A DNA stretch of 64,000 nt from a virus: positions 1 to 64,000 of the IMG/VR virus record IMGVR_UViG_3300018080_000118; one strand, 5' to 3'. The notes beneath the pieces were generated by a model. It was given only the letters and a program-made list of their open reading frames with translations. It ran no database searches and had not been told where the DNA came from. Of the stretch, positions 11,238 to 57,784 are shown one piece after another (position 1 is the first letter of the stretch; every line of letters starts with the position of its first letter). The translations under genes and the position numbers were made by a program.

Positions 11238-11292
11238 AAAGGTATTGCTTCCAGTTTAACGGCACCCCTGCCGATTATCCAGTCTCCACTGA

Positions 11293-11366
11293 TGCGCCCG
11301 GCTGGAGTCGAACCAGCAACCACCAGCTTTAGAGGCCGGCCGCTCTGCCATTAAGCGTACGGGCGC
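11293..11366 (-). tRNA. tRNA with anticodon CUA (amber suppressor)
   Basis: A full cloverleaf of 74 nt: acceptor GCGCCCG/CGGGCGC (7 perfect pairs), T8-A9, D stem CGCT/AGCG with GG in the loop, anticodon stem CCGGC/GCTGG (one G-U) around loop CTCTAAA, a 5 nt variable loop, T stem GCTGG/CCAGC with loop TTCGACT, discriminator A. With U33 in place, the anticodon is CUA (11332-11330), which reads UAG. CCA is not encoded. The amino acid is unknown; acceptor and T arm look Arg-like. It lies between the tmRNA and the genes that may need it. Confidence 0.85.
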
Positions 11367-11436
11367 AAACCCCCAGATGAATGCAGCGACACCTATCGCG
11401 AATCGGTGACCGTTAGGCTCCGGGGGGCCAGCTGGT

Positions 11437-13182: not shown

Positions 13183-13833
13183 TTACTTCTCTGTTTCGTC
13201 GTCGAGATCGGGCATGTCGCCGTAGCTCAGAGACGAGCTGCAGCGCATGAGCTTCACGCGGCTGCCCGTAGCGCTGTAGGCTGAGCCCACGCCCTGGCCT
13301 GATGCGGCGAAGTTGGCGCACATGTTTTTCATTGCGCCGTACCCGAGCCCTGTGGAGATGGCGTCGATGTTGGCCCCCAGGAAGAGGATCTCCCAGGAGT
13401 ATTTCTCTCGCTGGTGCTCCACCATCTCCTTGACCTTGCGTCGGCCGTCGTCGCCAGGGAACTCCACGGAGTAGTTTTCAGCGCCGTCGGTGATGACCAC
13501 GAGGATCACCTTCTCCGGGCGCTCTCCTTCCGGCAACTTGTTGAGTCGGCCACCAACGTCGAGGATGGTCTTGCCAATGGCGTCGTTGAGACGTGTCCAT
13601 CCTCGGGCGAAGTATTCCTTCGACGTGAGTTCGGGCAGTTCCTTGATGTCCACGCCCTGGTGCAGCACTTCGTACTTGTCGTCGAAGAGCACGACGGTCA
13701 CCTGCGCGTCTCCGGGGACCTCCCGCTGCTCCTTGATGAACTCGTTGAACTTGGTGATGGTCTCCTGCTGCAGGGCGCTCATCGAGCCACTGCGGTCTAG
13801 GACGCAAACGATTTCTGTGAGGTCTTTCTTCAT
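13183..13833 (-). CDS. von Willebrand factor A (VWA) domain protein
   Basis: A 216-residue protein that is almost entirely one VWA domain. The metal-ion site is intact: DRSGSMS at residues 13-19 (DxSxS), a Thr in GWTRLNDAI near residue 79, and Asp in VVITDGAEN near residue 116. VWA domains bind partner proteins through Mg ions. Ribosome site AAGGAAGGAGCCCC. A terminator and the tRNA pieces lie immediately upstream, so it heads the unit VWA, ParB-like, Pth2-like, small basic protein. Its partner is unknown; the ParB-like neighbour is a candidate. Confidence 0.88.
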   Translation of the reverse strand: MKKDLTEIVCVLDRSGSMSALQQETITKFNEFIKEQREVPGDAQVTVVLFDDKYEVLHQGVDIKELPELTSKEYFARGWTRLNDAIGKTILDVGGRLNKLPEGERPEKVILVVITDGAENYSVEFPGDDGRRKVKEMVEHQREKYSWEILFLGANIDAISTGLGYGAMKNMCANFAASGQGVGSAYSATGSRVKLMRCSSSLSYGDMPDLDDETEK

Positions 13834-13858
13834 GGGGCTCCTTCCTTCTTAAAAAAGC

Positions 13859-13890
13859 GGGGGGTGGCTCGTATCGCCTGGCCACCCCCC
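13859..13890 (-). terminator. intrinsic terminator after the permuted tRNA region
   Basis: GGGGGGTGGC and GCCACCCCCC make a perfect 10 bp stem with a 12 nt loop; on the minus strand GC and six T follow. It separates the tRNA region from the VWA gene. Confidence 0.85.
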
Positions 13891-13903
13891 TGTTTATCAT
13901 CAG

Positions 13904-13937
13904 TCTCGATTATAAGTCGAGTGCTCTAACGAGCGTC
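13904..13937 (-). pseudogene. decayed tRNA fragment resembling tRNA-Ile(UAU)
   Basis: On the minus strand GCTC-GTTA-GAGC looks like a D arm that has lost about five loop bases. It is followed by A and an anticodon arm CTCGA-CTTATAA-TCGAG, giving anticodon UAU with U33. No T arm and no matching acceptor halves follow; the sequence runs into the terminator. It is probably a remnant, or part of the trailer of the permuted tRNA transcript. Confidence 0.4.
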
Positions 13938-13983
13938 GATGGGAACTTCTCCTTTCTGCGGCACTGAGCCTGAAGCATTAGCT

Positions 13984-14064
13984 GCCGAGGTCATACCGTT
14001 AGACCACGCTCCCGTCTTTGGTTCGTCTGGAGGGAGCGATGGGATTCGAACCCACATTATCGGC
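13984..14064 (-). tRNA. circularly permuted tRNA gene, Gly-like (3' half before 5' half)
   Basis: In transcription order the 3' half comes first (14064-14028): anticodon-stem strand GCCGA, TAAT, T arm GTGGG-TTCGAAT-CCCAT, acceptor CGCTCCC, discriminator T and encoded CCA. After 14 nt comes the 5' half (14013-13984): acceptor GGGAGCG, TG, D arm GTC-TAACGGTAT-GAC, C, anticodon-stem strand TCGGC. Joined, they give a normal tRNA with 7 perfect acceptor pairs and 5 perfect anticodon-stem pairs. U73 and the arm sequences look like tRNA-Gly. The anticodon is unresolved: candidate loops are AGCGTAT, AGCTTAT or AGCTAAT, and all lack U33. No alternative partner half exists within about 200 nt on either side. 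Confidence 0.7.
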
Positions 14065-14250
14065 ATACGCTTTGTTTCGTGCCTTTCAGGATGCGTTCCG
14101 GCTGAAGCTAGGAGCATACCACTGACTCTGACCCAAGGTGAGCTTGAGCTCACAGCCATAGACAGCCACATAGGCTGGCGGCTGCGATATCTGAATCTGA
14201 GTCTAGCTCCTTTATTTCTAGTTTACTTGGTGTTGTTCCGGAAGTCCAGC

Positions 14251-15009
14251 CTACTCGATGGGCAGGTCGCGGAACAGCCAGACGAACAGTTTCCGGCCGA
14301 TGTGGTCCTGCTTCGCGTCGACCCGATTGGCTCTCGCGAGAGCGACGCCGAGACCTTCCAGGAGTTCCTCGGTCTTCTTGACCAGCGCGGTCTTCTGCTT
14401 CTGGGTGAGCTTGCCGGACCAGTACTTCTTCGTCACCTCGCCTGTGACGACGTCCTCGGACTTCTCACGGATCTCGGCTCGGTGCTCCTTCGTGGGAGCC
14501 ACTACCACCTCGTGGAAGACCTTCTTGGTCGTCCGGTACGAGATGACGGGGTCGGTCTTGAAGATGCCGACGCCCCGTTCTTCGTCTACGTCCCACTCGT
14601 GCTTGGGGTCGTGGGTCGGAATGGCGCGGAAGACCGTGAGCAGCTGTTCCACACTCTTCTTGAGCGCGAGCAGCTGCGTCGTCGGCAGCTCGGGTAGATC
14701 AAGCCCCTCCACGTCGACCCTCCCCAGGGCCTCCATGTTGGTCCGGTCGATCGTGGCGTTCAGGTCGATGCTGGGGATGAGGCTTTCGCGGAGTTCCGCG
14801 AGCACATTCCCGACCGTGGTGGTCAGGTGCGTGGTTTTCGGGGTCTCTCTGTGGAGTCCCGAGGGATCCTCCTCCAGGTGCCTGTAGCTCTGCATGAATG
14901 CCTCGAAGAGGTGATCGGCTCCGAACACCTTCTTCGCCTGGCGGAGCGCCTCCCTGGCCTGCTCCTCTCTCTGGGTCCTGGCCGCGAGAACCTCGTGAAG
15001 CTGTCCCAT
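14251..15009 (-). CDS. conserved phage/actinobacterial protein of unknown function
   Basis: A 252-residue protein starting at ATG 15009 with TAAGGAGGAATTC upstream; a start 34 codons earlier lacks a site. An N-terminal helix (residues 1-50) is followed by VTTVGNVL-type segments, HDPKHEWDVDEERG, and a strongly conserved-looking block YRTTKKVFHEVVVAPTKEH, ending in a long helix. I recall similar uncharacterised proteins in actinobacterial genomes and phages, often about 250 residues, but the molecular role is unknown. It ends in TAG; the frame continues ten codons to another TAG and then TAA. It lies next to the permuted tRNA. Confidence 0.65.
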   Translation of the reverse strand: MGQLHEVLAARTQREEQAREALRQAKKVFGADHLFEAFMQSYRHLEEDPSGLHRETPKTTHLTTTVGNVLAELRESLIPSIDLNATIDRTNMEALGRVDVEGLDLPELPTTQLLALKKSVEQLLTVFRAIPTHDPKHEWDVDEERGVGIFKTDPVISYRTTKKVFHEVVVAPTKEHRAEIREKSEDVVTGEVTKKYWSGKLTQKQKTALVKKTEELLEGLGVALARANRVDAKQDHIGRKLFVWLFRDLPIE

Positions 15010-51547: not shown

Positions 51548-54500
51548 ATGTTCACAGCTACTGAAAGCTTCTCGGCTCTTCTGAACCGAGTGAAGGACCT
51601 CGTTGCCCGCACTTTTCCTGTAGAAGGCAAGAATCACACCGTCCGTGTGTCCAACCTTCGCTGGGAAAATGTCGACGCTAAGTTCTACAGCGATCCCGAT
51701 ATCCACAAGGAGTACAAGACCAAGGGTAAGACCCTGTCCGCGCGCCTCGTTGGGAATGTCAGCATCGTCGACAACAAGAGCCGAAAGGTCATCGCGCAGG
51801 AAAGCGGATACCCCCTTTCTCTCGTTCCACACATCACGAGCAAGCAAGCCTTCATCATCGGGGGCAAGGACGTCCAGGTGGTGAACCAGCTGCGCCTCAA
51901 GCCTGGCACGTACACCCGCTACATGGCCGACAACAACGTCGAGACCTTCATCAACACGCCGGGTGGCGGCTATCGGGTCCAGTTTGACCGCGAACGCAAG
52001 ATCTTCCGCGTGCGCGTCGGCCAGTCCACCTACGTCTACCTCTATCCCGTGCTGATGGGCATGGGTGTGCCTGAGGAACAGCTGCGCCGCATCTGGGGCA
52101 ACGAGATCCTCAACGTCAACCGGCAGTATAACCGGCCCGACGAGATGGCAAAGCTCTACCGCAAGTTGCGCCCGTATGCCCCGCAGCCCAAGGACAAGAC
52201 AGAGTTGGCCCAGGCTGTCATCTCGTTCTTCAAGTCGAAGCCTCTTGACCCCGACATCACCAAGCTGACCCTGGGCTCGCCCTACAAGCAGATCGAACCC
52301 AAGGTCTTGGTGGCGGCATCGGAGAAAGCCCTGAAGCTCGCGCAGGGCAAGGCGAAGGCAGACGACACGGAGAACTTGGCCTACAAGAGCATCCATTCCG
52401 TCGAGGACTTCATCCCGGAAAAGATCGAGAGAGCGGTGCCAGCCATTCGGCGCTCCATCGAGCGTGAGCTGAACAGGCGGCAGTTCATGTCCCGGAAGAA
52501 CAAGGTCATGGACGCGGTGCCTCCGTCACTCTTCACTACCCCCGTGCTCTCCTTTTTTACGCAGAGCGAGTTCACGCGGTACAGCGACCAGAACAACCCG
52601 CTGGACATGGCGTCGGTCAACGCCCTGACAACTACCTTGGGCGAGGGCGGCATCAGCTCGGTTCATGCTGTGACCGACAGGCTCCGCACCGTGCACCCAA
52701 GCCATGCAGGTGTGCTGGACCCTCTCGCCACGCCGGAAGGAACGCGTATCGGCATCACCGGCCACCTCTCCGCTGGTGCCCGAAAGATCGGCAACGATCT
52801 CGGCCTCCAGGTCATTGATCCGAAGACGGGCCGCGAGGTGACCAGGAAGATCTTCGACCTGGAAGACAAGGCGGTGGCTTTCTACGATCAGTACGACTTC
52901 CGTGGCAAGAAGCCGCGCCCGAAATCCCAGATGGTAAAGGCGCGTATCAAGGGAGAGCTGAAGGAGATCCCCTCTGGCCAGGTGGACTTCATCTTTGCCC
53001 ACCCATCTCGTTTCTTCGGCGTTGTCTCGAATGCCATCCCGTTCCTGCACACGAACAGCCCGAACCGCGCCCTCATGGCGGGCAGGCACCTGGAGCAGGC
53101 GGTCCCTCTGAAGAATCCCGACGTGCCCAGCGTGCAGGCGAAGTTCGGACGAAAAGGTTTCGAGACCACGACGGGGAAGCTGCTGGCATCCAAGTCTCCG
53201 GTCACCGGAATCGTCACGACAGTCAGAAAGAACGCCATCACGATCCGGGGAGACGATGGTAAGACCCACACCGTGAAGCTGCACGACCACTACCCGCTCA
53301 ACTCCAATGCGTTCCTGCACGAGCGGCCTATCGTGACCAAGGGCCAGCGCGTCAAGAAGGACCAGACGATCGCCGACTCTGACTTCACCCGGGATGGAGC
53401 CCTGGCGATGGGCAAGACGCTCAGAACAGCCTACATGCCGTACAAGGGCTATAACTTCGAAGACGGCGTGGTTGTCTCTGAGTCTGCTGCGAAGAAACTC
53501 ACCAGCGTGCACAAGCATGAGATCCGGCTCAACCTGGATCCCACGATCTCCGTGGGCCTCTCCAAGCTGCTGGCTCTGTTCCCGGCGTACAACGAAGGGC
53601 TGGATAGGTCCAAGTACGGGGCAAACGGTTTGGTGAAGAAGGGAACCGTTCTGCAGCCCGAGGAGCTCGTCATCCCTGCTGTCAGGAAGGTGAAGGTCCA
53701 CGAAGACTTCGACTACTCGAAACTGCACAAGGCCCTAAAGAACCAGTGGCTGGACGTCTCGATGAAGTGGGACGGGCATGGGCCAGCCGAAGTCGTCGAC
53801 GTGGTGAAGACCCGAGGATTCGTGTCGATCTACGTCAAGACTGATGAGCAGCTGGAGGTGGGGGACAAACTCTCCCATCGCGCCGGTGGCAAGGGCATTG
53901 TCACGGCCATCTTGCCGGACAACGAGATGTACCAGGACTCCAAGGGGAACGTCATCGACCTGCTCTACAACCCGGCCAGCGTGCTGGGGCGGGCGAACCC
54001 GGGCCAACTTCTCGAAGCGGCTGCCGGGAAGGTCTCCGAGAAGACGAAGACACCCTATCTGGTGGACAATTTCGACAAGCCTGGCGATGCGCTAAAAGAT
54101 GTCCAAGCAGCCATGCGGGCCGCTGGTGTCAAAGACACCGAGGAGATCTACGACCCCACCACCAACAAGAAGATCCCGAACATCAACGTCGGGAATGTGC
54201 ACTTCATCAAGCTGCGTCACCAGGTGTCCAAAAAGCTCTCTGCCCGAGGGAACGACTCCTACACCCATGACGAGACTCCCGCGAGAATCACGGGCAAGAA
54301 GGCCAACCCGCTGGCTATCGGGTCCATGGAGCTCTATTCCCTTCTGTCCGGGGGCGGCACCGCTTTTCTGCGGGACGCGTCCACGATCAAGTCCCAGAAG
54401 AATGACGAATACTGGCGAGCTGTCCAGCTTGGATTGCCGCTCCCACCAGTACGGACCCCTTTTGTGGTCGACAAGTTCACTACCTTCATGCGCGGTGCCG

Positions 54501-57500
54501 GCATCGACCTGAAGCAAGAGGGGACGAAGCTCAAGGCGCTCCCGCTCATCGACAAGGAGATCGCTATCCAGAGCAATGGCGAGATCAAGAGTCCTGGCGT
54601 TGTGAAGGCAAACGACTTGTCGCCTGAGAAGGGTGGTCTCTTCGACCGTGCAATTACTGGGGGCTATGACGGGAACTATTGGAACCATATCGAGCTGGAG
54701 AGCGAGATCCCCAACCCTCTGATGGACGACGCTATCGTCGGTGTGCTGGCACCGAGCATCAAGAAGAAGCAATTCAACCAGATCGTCAATGGCACCGTCT
54801 TCATCACGCCGGACGGTCGGCTCACCACTGAATCCAAGGGCAACAAGACGGGAGGCGCGGGACTCAAGATTCTTCTGAGCAAGATTAACGTCGATGCGGA
54901 GCTGAAGAAAGCTCGTAGAGACATCAAGAATCAGCGAGGTGCTCGGAGGAATGTCACAGCGAAAAGACTGCGGTTCCTGCGCGCACTCAAGCAGCTCGGC
55001 CTGAGTCCTGTCGAGGCCTACCTGAACAAGCACGTGCCTGTGATCCCTGCCAAGTTCCGGCCCATCTATCCAAACCCGGATGGCTCGCTCAACGTGTCGG
55101 ACCCTATTCACGGCTATCGCGAAGTCATCATGATCAACAACCAGATCAAGGACCTGAAGCGGTTCGGCGTGGACGACAAGAACCTTGCCCCTCTCCGCAC
55201 ACAGCTCTACGGGGCCGTCCGGGGTCTCGTTGGGCTACAGGAGCCGCTGACCAGGAACAAGAACTTCCGAGGCTTCCTGAGCACTATCAAGGGCAAGCAG
55301 AACAAGTTCGGTTTCTTCCAGGGGCGCGTGCTCAAGCGGCGTCAGGACCTCACCGGCCGCTCTACGATCATCCCCGATCCGAAACTCGGCATCGATCAGG
55401 TAAAGATCCCTGACGAGATGGCCTTCGTCATCTACAAGCCCTACATCATGCAGAAGCTCCGGGCTCTGGGCCACATGCCTCTGCGTGCCAGGGAGCTCAT
55501 CGAGAAGCGAGATCCCATCGCACGCTCTGCGTTGACCGAGGTCCTCAAAGAGAGGCCCGTCCTTCTGAACCGTGCACCGACGCTGCACAAGTTCGGCCTC
55601 CTCTCCTTCAAGCCTACGCTGACCTCTGGGAAGGCCATCAAGATCAATCCTCTGGTGGTCGGTGGCTTCAACGCGGACTTCGATGGCGACGCCATGCAGG
55701 TCCACGTTCCTGTGTCCGAGGAAGCTCGTCGCGAGGCGATGACCAAACTGCTGCCCAGCTCCAACCTATTCAGCCCGAGAGACGACACGCTTGTGCACGG
55801 TCCGTCGAAGGAGATGATCCTGGGCATCTACCTGATGACCACGCCGGAGGGAAAAGCTCTTCGAGCCAGGTCCGCCGCCGATGTCCTCGCCCGATACAAG
55901 TCGGGCAAGATCCAGGTCAATCAGGCCATGAAGGTAGGGGCGAAGACGATCTGTGCCGGACAGGTCATCTTCAATGAGGCGCTGCCCAAGGAAGTTCGTC
56001 CGGGCTATATCCCGATCGACAAGAAGAAGCTGATGCTCCTCCTGTCCGACCTCGCCAGGAAGAAACCACAGATCTCGGGTCAGGTCATCTCGAAGGTGAA
56101 GGATCTCGGGAACAAATACGTTACCGAGGTGGGCTTCTCTGTCGGGCTCAAGGATCTGGAGTTCCCGTACGCTGACCGAGATAAGATCCTGGCCCAGGCA
56201 GCAAAGGTGTCCAAGCGAGTAGGCTTCGCCAAGGCCTATGCAGCGGCTGGCGACAAGCTCGAAGCCCACATGAAGAAGAAGCTCGCCAAGAGCAACCGCT
56301 TCGTGGTGGGGGCCACAACGTCGGGTGCCTTCGGGAAGCCGAACCAGGTGATGCAAACGATCGCCTCTCCGGTAGCCGTGACCGATCATGAGGGAAAGGT
56401 AATCCCCATTCCCATCAAGAAGTCTCTGGCGGAGGGGCTGGACATTGGTAGTTACTGGTCGATCATCCCGGGCTCCAGAAAGGGCCTCGTGGACAAGGGC
56501 CTTTCTACGGCGGATACCGGGGCCTTTGGCAAGATGCTCATCGCAGCCACGGTGGACACCATGGTATCCATGCGTGACTGCGGAACTCGCGAAGGCATCA
56601 CGCTCCCGATCACGGACCAGGACGCCCTGGATCGTGTTGTGGCGAAGGGGGCGTACCGGGGCAAGGTCACTACTCCGGCCCTGATCCGAACACTGAAAGC
56701 TCGCGGAAAGAAGACCATCGATGTGCGGTCGCCCCTTCACTGCAAGGCGCAGCGCGGCATCTGCGCGAAGTGTTTCGGTCTTCTGGAGAATGGGCAATTC
56801 CCGTCCATCGGATACCATATTGGAACCCTCGCCGGTCAGACCATCGCCGAGCCTATGACGCAGCTCACCCTTCGAGCTTTCCATACCGGCGGTACAATCG
56901 GCGGGGGCACCGTGGGCTTTCCTCGCCTCAAGCAGATCCTGGAGATGCCTACCAACGTGCGAGGAAAGGCGACGCTGGCTAAGGTCGATGGCAAGGTCTC
57001 CAACGTCAAGAAGTCTGCCGCAGGTGGTTGGGAGGTCACGATCGACTCTATGGCCCACTTCGTGCCGCAGGAGCAGGGGCTCGGTGTGCGCATCGGAAGT
57101 CGGGTCAAGGCAGGAGACAAGATCTCGCTCGGCGGTGTGGTGAAGCCCCAGGAGTTGCTGGAGGCTACCAACGACATCCGCAAGGTGCAGGACCACATCA
57201 TCGGGGATATCAACAACGAGGTGTTTGGCCCCTCAGGTATCCGGGTCAAACGGAAGATCCTTGAGACCGCCATCCAGCCCATGACCAATAGGGCCGAAGT
57301 GACAGATCCCGGCGACGGAGACGTTGCCTTCGGGGTACACACAGGAGACGTCGTACAGCTCAACAAGCTCGACAGCATGAACAGGAAGCTAAAGGCCAAG
57401 AAGAAGAACCTCATCCAGTACATCCCAGCGCTCCTGTCCATACGGAAAGTTCCTCAGTATCACGACGACTTCATCGGGCAGCTCGTTGCCGAGAGGCCCC

Positions 57501-57784
57501 ACCGCACCCTGAAGATGGCACCCTCGCTTGCTGCGAAGTCTGACATCGGTCCTGGTGGTCATCCGATCGCGACCTATGCTTTCGGCAAGTTCTTCAACAC
57601 CAAACCAGCGCTCAACCAGAAGAGCTACGTGAAGACAGCGGAGGAGATCGTCGAAGAGCTCGACGAGCTGTCCGCTGTCGTAGAGCCGGACGCCCCCCTT
57701 GAGGCAGACGGCGCGCTGGATACCGATGTCTCAGACGCTCTCGGCGATTTGCTGACAACTCTGGGAGTGGTCAAGGAGGAGTAA
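51548..57784 (+). CDS. fused beta/beta-prime multisubunit-type RNA polymerase
   Basis: A 2078-residue single chain joining both large subunits of bacterial-type RNA polymerase. Beta-like part (about 1-1000): DQNNPLD at about 347, HPSHAGVLDPLATPEGTR, GYNFEDGVVVSE near 635, and a beta C-terminal GSMELYSLLSGGG. Beta-prime part: LNRAPTLHKFGLLSF, the catalytic NADFDGDAMQVHVP near 1375 with the three magnesium-binding Asp, and the second zinc site (MRDCGTREG plus CKAQRGICAKC near 1731). GQTIAEPMTQLTLRAFHTGG near 1770 is the trigger-loop region. The first beta-prime zinc site is missing. It is about 700 residues shorter than E. coli beta plus beta-prime. No alpha, omega or sigma gene is seen. Confidence 0.95.
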   Translation: MFTATESFSALLNRVKDLVARTFPVEGKNHTVRVSNLRWENVDAKFYSDPDIHKEYKTKGKTLSARLVGNVSIVDNKSRKVIAQESGYPLSLVPHITSKQAFIIGGKDVQVVNQLRLKPGTYTRYMADNNVETFINTPGGGYRVQFDRERKIFRVRVGQSTYVYLYPVLMGMGVPEEQLRRIWGNEILNVNRQYNRPDEMAKLYRKLRPYAPQPKDKTELAQAVISFFKSKPLDPDITKLTLGSPYKQIEPKVLVAASEKALKLAQGKAKADDTENLAYKSIHSVEDFIPEKIERAVPAIRRSIERELNRRQFMSRKNKVMDAVPPSLFTTPVLSFFTQSEFTRYSDQNNPLDMASVNALTTTLGEGGISSVHAVTDRLRTVHPSHAGVLDPLATPEGTRIGITGHLSAGARKIGNDLGLQVIDPKTGREVTRKIFDLEDKAVAFYDQYDFRGKKPRPKSQMVKARIKGELKEIPSGQVDFIFAHPSRFFGVVSNAIPFLHTNSPNRALMAGRHLEQAVPLKNPDVPSVQAKFGRKGFETTTGKLLASKSPVTGIVTTVRKNAITIRGDDGKTHTVKLHDHYPLNSNAFLHERPIVTKGQRVKKDQTIADSDFTRDGALAMGKTLRTAYMPYKGYNFEDGVVVSESAAKKLTSVHKHEIRLNLDPTISVGLSKLLALFPAYNEGLDRSKYGANGLVKKGTVLQPEELVIPAVRKVKVHEDFDYSKLHKALKNQWLDVSMKWDGHGPAEVVDVVKTRGFVSIYVKTDEQLEVGDKLSHRAGGKGIVTAILPDNEMYQDSKGNVIDLLYNPASVLGRANPGQLLEAAAGKVSEKTKTPYLVDNFDKPGDALKDVQAAMRAAGVKDTEEIYDPTTNKKIPNINVGNVHFIKLRHQVSKKLSARGNDSYTHDETPARITGKKANPLAIGSMELYSLLSGGGTAFLRDASTIKSQKNDEYWRAVQLGLPLPPVRTPFVVDKFTTFMRGAGIDLKQEGTKLKALPLIDKEIAIQSNGEIKSPGVVKANDLSPEKGGLFDRAITGGYDGNYWNHIELESEIPNPLMDDAIVGVLAPSIKKKQFNQIVNGTVFITPDGRLTTESKGNKTGGAGLKILLSKINVDAELKKARRDIKNQRGARRNVTAKRLRFLRALKQLGLSPVEAYLNKHVPVIPAKFRPIYPNPDGSLNVSDPIHGYREVIMINNQIKDLKRFGVDDKNLAPLRTQLYGAVRGLVGLQEPLTRNKNFRGFLSTIKGKQNKFGFFQGRVLKRRQDLTGRSTIIPDPKLGIDQVKIPDEMAFVIYKPYIMQKLRALGHMPLRARELIEKRDPIARSALTEVLKERPVLLNRAPTLHKFGLLSFKPTLTSGKAIKINPLVVGGFNADFDGDAMQVHVPVSEEARREAMTKLLPSSNLFSPRDDTLVHGPSKEMILGIYLMTTPEGKALRARSAADVLARYKSGKIQVNQAMKVGAKTICAGQVIFNEALPKEVRPGYIPIDKKKLMLLLSDLARKKPQISGQVISKVKDLGNKYVTEVGFSVGLKDLEFPYADRDKILAQAAKVSKRVGFAKAYAAAGDKLEAHMKKKLAKSNRFVVGATTSGAFGKPNQVMQTIASPVAVTDHEGKVIPIPIKKSLAEGLDIGSYWSIIPGSRKGLVDKGLSTADTGAFGKMLIAATVDTMVSMRDCGTREGITLPITDQDALDRVVAKGAYRGKVTTPALIRTLKARGKKTIDVRSPLHCKAQRGICAKCFGLLENGQFPSIGYHIGTLAGQTIAEPMTQLTLRAFHTGGTIGGGTVGFPRLKQILEMPTNVRGKATLAKVDGKVSNVKKSAAGGWEVTIDSMAHFVPQEQGLGVRIGSRVKAGDKISLGGVVKPQELLEATNDIRKVQDHIIGDINNEVFGPSGIRVKRKILETAIQPMTNRAEVTDPGDGDVAFGVHTGDVVQLNKLDSMNRKLKAKKKNLIQYIPALLSIRKVPQYHDDFIGQLVAERPHRTLKMAPSLAAKSDIGPGGHPIATYAFGKFFNTKPALNQKSYVKTAEEIVEELDELSAVVEPDAPLEADGALDTDVSDALGDLLTTLGVVKEE
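57753..57773. repeat. palindromic operator-like site, copy 4
   Basis: GACAACTCTGGGAGTGGTC inside the last codons of the RNA polymerase gene, 10 bp before the start of the next gene; GGAG again acts near the ribosome site. Confidence 0.55.

Follow-up and report, generated by a model that had tools for sequence, protein, structure and literature searches.

YrlA (RF02553), a bacterial Y RNA bound by Ro60, tethers PNPase and has a basal stem topped by a tRNA-like domain; it is a known transfer RNA (tRNA) mimic, recognised and modified by DusA and TruB (PMC8394870). Circularly permuted tRNA genes have been described from red and green algae and from archaea; their transcripts are spliced at the junction and the spacer is removed by RNase P and tRNase Z (PMC3978253). 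Permuted genes and two-piece RNAs are also known for transfer-messenger RNA (tmRNA; PMC11915505). Here we analyzed a permuted tRNA-like unit on the minus strand of a 64,000-nt stretch (the window) of the 136-kb IMG/VR virus record IMGVR_UViG_3300018080_000118, which an original prediction made from the sequence had taken for a permuted tRNA gene. We found that it is best read as a tRNA-mimic RNA of a family linked to genes for DUF7873 (PF25283), which stands beside YrlA and is more general than the original prediction supposed.

In the window, an upstream 3' tRNA-like half (14028–14065, minus strand, as are all features below unless stated) is followed by the matching 5' half (13983–14013) after an acceptor-loop spacer of 14 nt (GACGAACCAAAGAC, 14014–14027), an order that had been predicted and was borne out both by the sequence and by a strict scan that demanded all four elements (T arm, acceptor, D arm, anticodon stem) in this permuted sequence. 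The 3' half consists of an anticodon-stem strand (TGCCGA, 14065–14060), a T arm (GTGGG-TTCGAAT-CCCAT, 14055–14039), the acceptor 3' strand (CGCTCCC, 14038–14032), U73 (14031) and CCA (14030–14028). The 5' half consists of the acceptor 5' strand (GGGAGCG, 14013–14007), a D arm (GTC-TAACGGTAT-GAC, 14004–13990) and the second anticodon-stem strand (TCGGCA, 13988–13983). All stems pair, the acceptor stem at 7 of 7 positions as predicted and the anticodon stem over 6 bp, one more than the five that had been counted. The strict scan yielded exactly one match in the 136-kb record, which was this unit, and none in the reversed or mononucleotide-shuffled record, while first-order Markov shuffling of the window, repeated 60 times, yielded one. 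The unit was missed by ARAGORN and by the Rfam tRNA model at its gathering score, and together ARAGORN and Rfam reported nothing in the window beyond a tmRNA and a single tRNA.

The gene adjoining the RNA upstream encodes DUF7873 (14251–15009; 252 aa, beginning MGQLHEVLAART; stop codon TAG; Pfam E = 1.2e-53), with its start codon placed by aligning 17 homologues. The same neighbour was present in a second phage contig, G001, which was found by pattern search and contains two tandem permuted units, the second of which is scored by the strict scan. In GenBank, DUF7873 occurs in phages of Gordonia, Arthrobacter, Rhodococcus, Rhizobium, Vibrio, Klebsiella, and Pseudanabaena, and in nearly all of these phages it is followed by a gap without annotation that contains one or two permuted units. 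The search for the arrangement in related phages that the original prediction had proposed was successful. An exact-pattern search of viral contigs and a nucleotide search of GenBank phages with the window sequence found none, and its DUF7873 as a direct protein query against IMG/VR gave no confirmed relatives. Family loci (80 viral and 80 bacterial, the latter mostly from Streptomyces and relatives) were fetched with an alignment of closer DUF7873 members. Among loci with sufficient flank, permuted units lay at most 1,500 nt downstream of DUF7873 in 80 of 80 bacterial and 66 of 76 viral cases, and upstream and reversed controls contained none. Two units in tandem were frequent. The cassette occurs sporadically: when 120 genomes of the phylum to which G007 belongs were sampled (G007 itself included), two carried DUF7873. 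In many phages the cassette adjoins tRNA arrays. By sequence, DUF7873 and its RNA thus form a cassette common to diverse phages and actinobacterial chromosomes. The family is widespread in phages and bacteria and apparently undescribed; DUF7873 was unmentioned in the literature searched, which did not include the main Y RNA papers, where these RNAs may have been mentioned earlier.

A covariance model (R1) was trained on 33 units from bacteria and IMG/VR, excluding the window's record and any GenBank phage record. R1 matched the window unit (permuted unit B with flanks, 13963–14077) with 45.4 bits (E = 1.6e-11), and this was the only strong match in the 64-kb window, the next being an ordinary tRNA at 15 bits. 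Matched by R1 and adjoining a same-strand DUF7873 gene, the window unit was assigned to the family. R1 also matched 15 of 15 GenBank-phage loci and 58 of 64 other viral loci, some of them near-duplicates of model sequences, and in an 11-Mb actinobacterial genome its top two matches were the two units beside DUF7873. The covariation score was 0.725 compared to 0.235 when shuffled, with 96 further pair types. The acceptor strands were Watson-Crick paired at 6.6 of 7 positions, compared to 3.5 of 7 when strands were exchanged between loci, and each acceptor position showed all four Watson-Crick pairs across units. The acceptor, T, D, and anticodon stems had been used in selecting members and the outer helix had not; in the latter, all eight pairs varied on both sides and 75% of cells were paired. 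Judged by these alignments, a permuted fold is conserved by covariation: T arm, acceptor and D arm come in turn, and the anticodon-like stem closing them runs on into the outer helix.

At the acceptor end, C74 directly followed the discriminator in 89–100% of family units, similar to the 98–100% in ordinary tRNAs of the same genomes. Position 75 was mostly a pyrimidine, and positions 77 onward had no conservation comparable to that of C74. Because C74 appears in the units as it does in ordinary tRNAs, we infer that the acceptor end is handled by tRNA-processing enzymes.

With a probability of roughly 0.7, we therefore read the window feature as a single tRNA-mimic module in a structured noncoding RNA, which is encoded immediately after DUF7873 and probably transcribed together with it. 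Given the gene neighbourhood, DUF7873 is likely to bind the RNA and form a particle with it, perhaps through ARNNUN repeats in the leader. On a slight balance of probability, RNase P and 3'-end maturation would open the acceptor loop, leaving a 5' end like that of a tRNA and an end in CCA; with the loop opened, the mature RNA would consist of pieces held together by base pairing, as in permuted tmRNA. More tentatively, the family may represent a new class of ribonucleoprotein, in which DUF7873 is bound to an RNA that carries one permuted tRNA-like domain or two; the acceptor ends of these domains would be matured, and possibly aminoacylated, by the tRNA machinery of the cell. Such a class would add a third anticodon-less tRNA mimic to tmRNA and Y RNA and would pass between phages and bacteria. 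By analogy with Ro60–YrlA, one might speculate that the tRNA elbow of the particle recruits or occupies a tRNA-binding enzyme, with a role in RNA surveillance, repair or counter-defence.

Several points weigh against this reading. The window member is divergent, having one unit rather than two and an outer helix that is gapped in the model alignment. Because the scanner itself selects complementarity, the outer helix is the sole unbiased evidence of covariation. Structure prediction for DUF7873, of high local confidence (pLDDT 90, pTM 0.66), gave helices and a beta hairpin, both long; a fold search gave no match in the Protein Data Bank (PDB) below E = 0.04 and one weak match in BFVD (E = 7e-4, TM-score 0.2), so that, with no solved structure to compare, RNA binding is argued from gene neighbourhood. 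C74 could have a cause other than processing, and the expression, binding and processing of the RNA are deduced from genomic data.

The alternative that survives best, though unlikely, is a Y RNA proper, that is, a YrlA RNA bound by a phage- or host-encoded Ro60 and tethering PNPase. Ro60-linked YrlA RNAs from the same or related genomes had a permuted order identical to that of the DUF7873-family units. The YrlA model matched the window unit with 26.4 bits (E = 1e-4), short of its gathering score of 69; relatives' units also matched below threshold, as did the Ro60-linked RNAs of these genomes. One relative, G001, encodes Ro60. Against this alternative, the motif TACTTC of the basal stem, which we read as a putative Ro60-binding region, was found in 15 of 21 Ro60-linked units and was absent from the window and from 258 of 259 DUF7873-family units. 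The Ro60 domain TROVE (PF05731) was not found in the window's record, and among other carriers only four of the 23 sampled, together with G001, have it. Moreover, G001 and Rhizobium phage TM39 have YrlA copies beside Ro60 that are separate from, and additional to, the DUF7873 RNA. In G001 (L029, 3445–9560), a cluster ~5–10 kb ahead of the DUF7873 cassette comprises genes for Ro60/TROVE, an AAA ATPase and a von Willebrand A-domain (VWA) protein, with two YrlA-like Y RNAs.

A true circularly permuted tRNA gene, in which splicing or ligation joins the halves in the anticodon loop and the spacer is then cut out by RNase P and tRNase Z, is improbable. The perfect acceptor and anticodon stems, the encoded CCA and the C74 signature all agree with it, as does a layout like that of algal type II permuted genes, with the junction in the anticodon loop (PMC3978253). 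However, joining the halves as a tRNA requires a 7-nt loop with U33, and U33 occurred in only 32% of phage units and 14% of bacterial units. When the window halves were joined at the asymmetric internal loop that lies beside the anticodon stem in the window fold, the resulting loop was AGCTAAT, with G at position 33. The region of the presumed splice site has a family motif instead of an anticodon: a TNAGRACTGA-like sequence 3' of the 5' half is constant whatever the tRNA body, and leads into the outer helix. The anticodon stem itself passes the internal loop into this further, covarying helix. The ligase RtcB was not found in the window's record (other ligases were not sought). Splicing of the halves is thus not supported, and the unit probably does not encode a functional tRNA; because an anticodon loop is neither encoded nor conserved, the window RNA very probably never becomes a decoding tRNA. 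What stands of the original prediction is the permuted order, kept in many relatives with a C74 signature as in genuine tRNA genes; what lacks support is the splicing into tRNA. Of the flanking complementary patches that it had proposed as guides for splicing, GGCAC/GTGCC and GCGT/ATGC (the latter as a 6-bp AAGCGT/ATGCTT helix) could pair in the minimum-energy fold, and CCTGAA/TTCAGG cannot nest with GGCAC/GTGCC.

Three further candidates were considered and dropped. Apparently full anticodon loops in the 5' halves of phages NiceHouse (CTGTTAA) and Fryberger (CTGAAA) coincided with the conserved TTAAACTGA-type motif. An anticodon arm downstream was discarded as a third tRNA piece because it is located where relatives have the conserved CTTAAACG tail region. 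For a permuted group I intron around a tRNA, no convincing core motifs were seen by eye and no Rfam intron matched.

As improbable as a true permuted tRNA gene is a tmRNA-like RNA with a charged acceptor end, in which codon-like repeats would serve as a tag or message in translation. A tRNA-like 3'-end signature without an anticodon would suit such an RNA, and permuted genes and two-piece RNAs have precedent in tmRNA (PMC11915505). In the leaders of two-unit relatives, tandem ARNNUN repeats were enriched, with at least three repeats in 26 of 46 compared to 0.2% in shuffles; they could form a protein-binding array or encode Lys/Arg-Leu. In the window, for example, the repeats (AGACTCAGATTCAGATAT, 14187–14204) read as Lys/Arg codons alternating with Leu codons. 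Yet no start, resume or stop codon was conserved by inspection, and no leader open reading frame (ORF) had a consistent start; the alanine pair G3-U70 was also unconserved. Rfam tmRNA models, standard or permuted, gave no reported match at the locus at E values up to 10, where only the best of overlapping clan matches is shown. Furthermore, the phage already encodes a standard tmRNA. This one-piece phage tmRNA (10862–11237) has the predicted tag ANPTKMGAFAPAMAA. It is adjoined by a tRNA (11291–11367) that looks like an amber suppressor, its anticodon being CTA in the loop CTCTAAA; the DUF7873 gene of the window ends in TAG.

Finally, the idea that two ordinary tRNAs once stood here in tandem and were reduced to a remnant by loss of their outer halves can be set aside, common as tRNA arrays are in such phages, since the layout is conserved with covariation across diverse hosts and in 80 of 80 bacterial loci, and the outer helix is conserved too.

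The noncoding RNA region extends from the DUF7873 stop codon to a terminator-like hairpin (13850–14250), and the homologous gap is kept in relatives. The fold of this 401-nt region had an energy of –148 kcal/mol (z = –4.0 compared to shuffles), and that of the permuted-unit region also beat shuffles (z = –2.6). Outside the anticodon stem, AAGCGT (14067–14072) may form a helix with ATGCTT (13973–13978), and GGCAC (14079–14083) pairs in the fold with GTGCC (13960–13964), corresponding to the helix that covaries in relatives (helix 1). Upstream of the unit is a middle motif (TATGCTCCTAGCTTCAGC, 14101–14118), similar by eye to the family motif CTCTCGCTCCAGCTTCAGC; pairing between leader and middle was no better than with exchanged partners. 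Downstream are a tail hairpin resembling an anticodon arm (CTCGA-CTTATAA-TCGAG, 13905–13921) and a terminal GC-rich hairpin with a AGGCGATACG-like loop followed by a T run (13851–13890). A loop of the YGGNTANG type recurs in the terminator-like hairpin of many DUF7873 RNAs, and a plain terminator needs no such loop. The next gene on the same strand encodes a VWA protein (13183–13833; Pfam VWA, E = 5e-6; phrog_7371, E = 1e-53). Elsewhere in the window, a 2078-aa ORF on the plus strand (51548–57784) has Rpb2 followed by Rpb1 domains, a fused beta/beta-prime multi-subunit RNA polymerase.

Our analysis points to a conserved RNA–protein cassette that copies tRNA without decoding and that standard annotation of tRNAs and RNA families has overlooked. 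If the acceptor end is truly processed, these RNAs would provide a test of how bacterial tRNA enzymes treat permuted substrates, and Streptomyces and Gordonia phages offer a tractable model for the roles of tRNA mimics in infection and RNA repair. Permuted tRNAs recognised by eye in bacteria or phages should be viewed with caution, as they may be Y-RNA-like mimics.

Among known systems, permuted tRNA genes share with the family the 3' half placed first, a short intervening sequence at the acceptor end and a break in the anticodon region. The family differs in that joining yields no decoding loop, U33 lacks conservation and the junction shows no diversity of anticodons; its members occur in phages and bacteria and accompany a single protein gene. 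Permuted two-piece tmRNAs (RF01849, RF01850, RF01851, RF04321) likewise have a permuted tRNA-like domain without an anticodon and a tRNA 3'-end signature at the acceptor loop, whereas the family has a D stem, often two modules, DUF7873 instead of SmpB as the putative partner, and no tag frame that was seen by eye to be conserved. The closest known relatives of the family are the YrlA Y RNAs, which are anticodon-less tRNA mimics with a T arm, an acceptor stem closed by a loop, a D arm and a closing stem; because the Ro60-linked RNAs have the identical order, the permuted layout is a known mimic design. Compared to YrlA, whose partner is Ro60/Rsr, the DUF7873 family has DUF7873 beside the RNA and usually no Ro60, more frequent C74 (89–100% versus 60%), often two modules, and a different outer helix and conserved tail.
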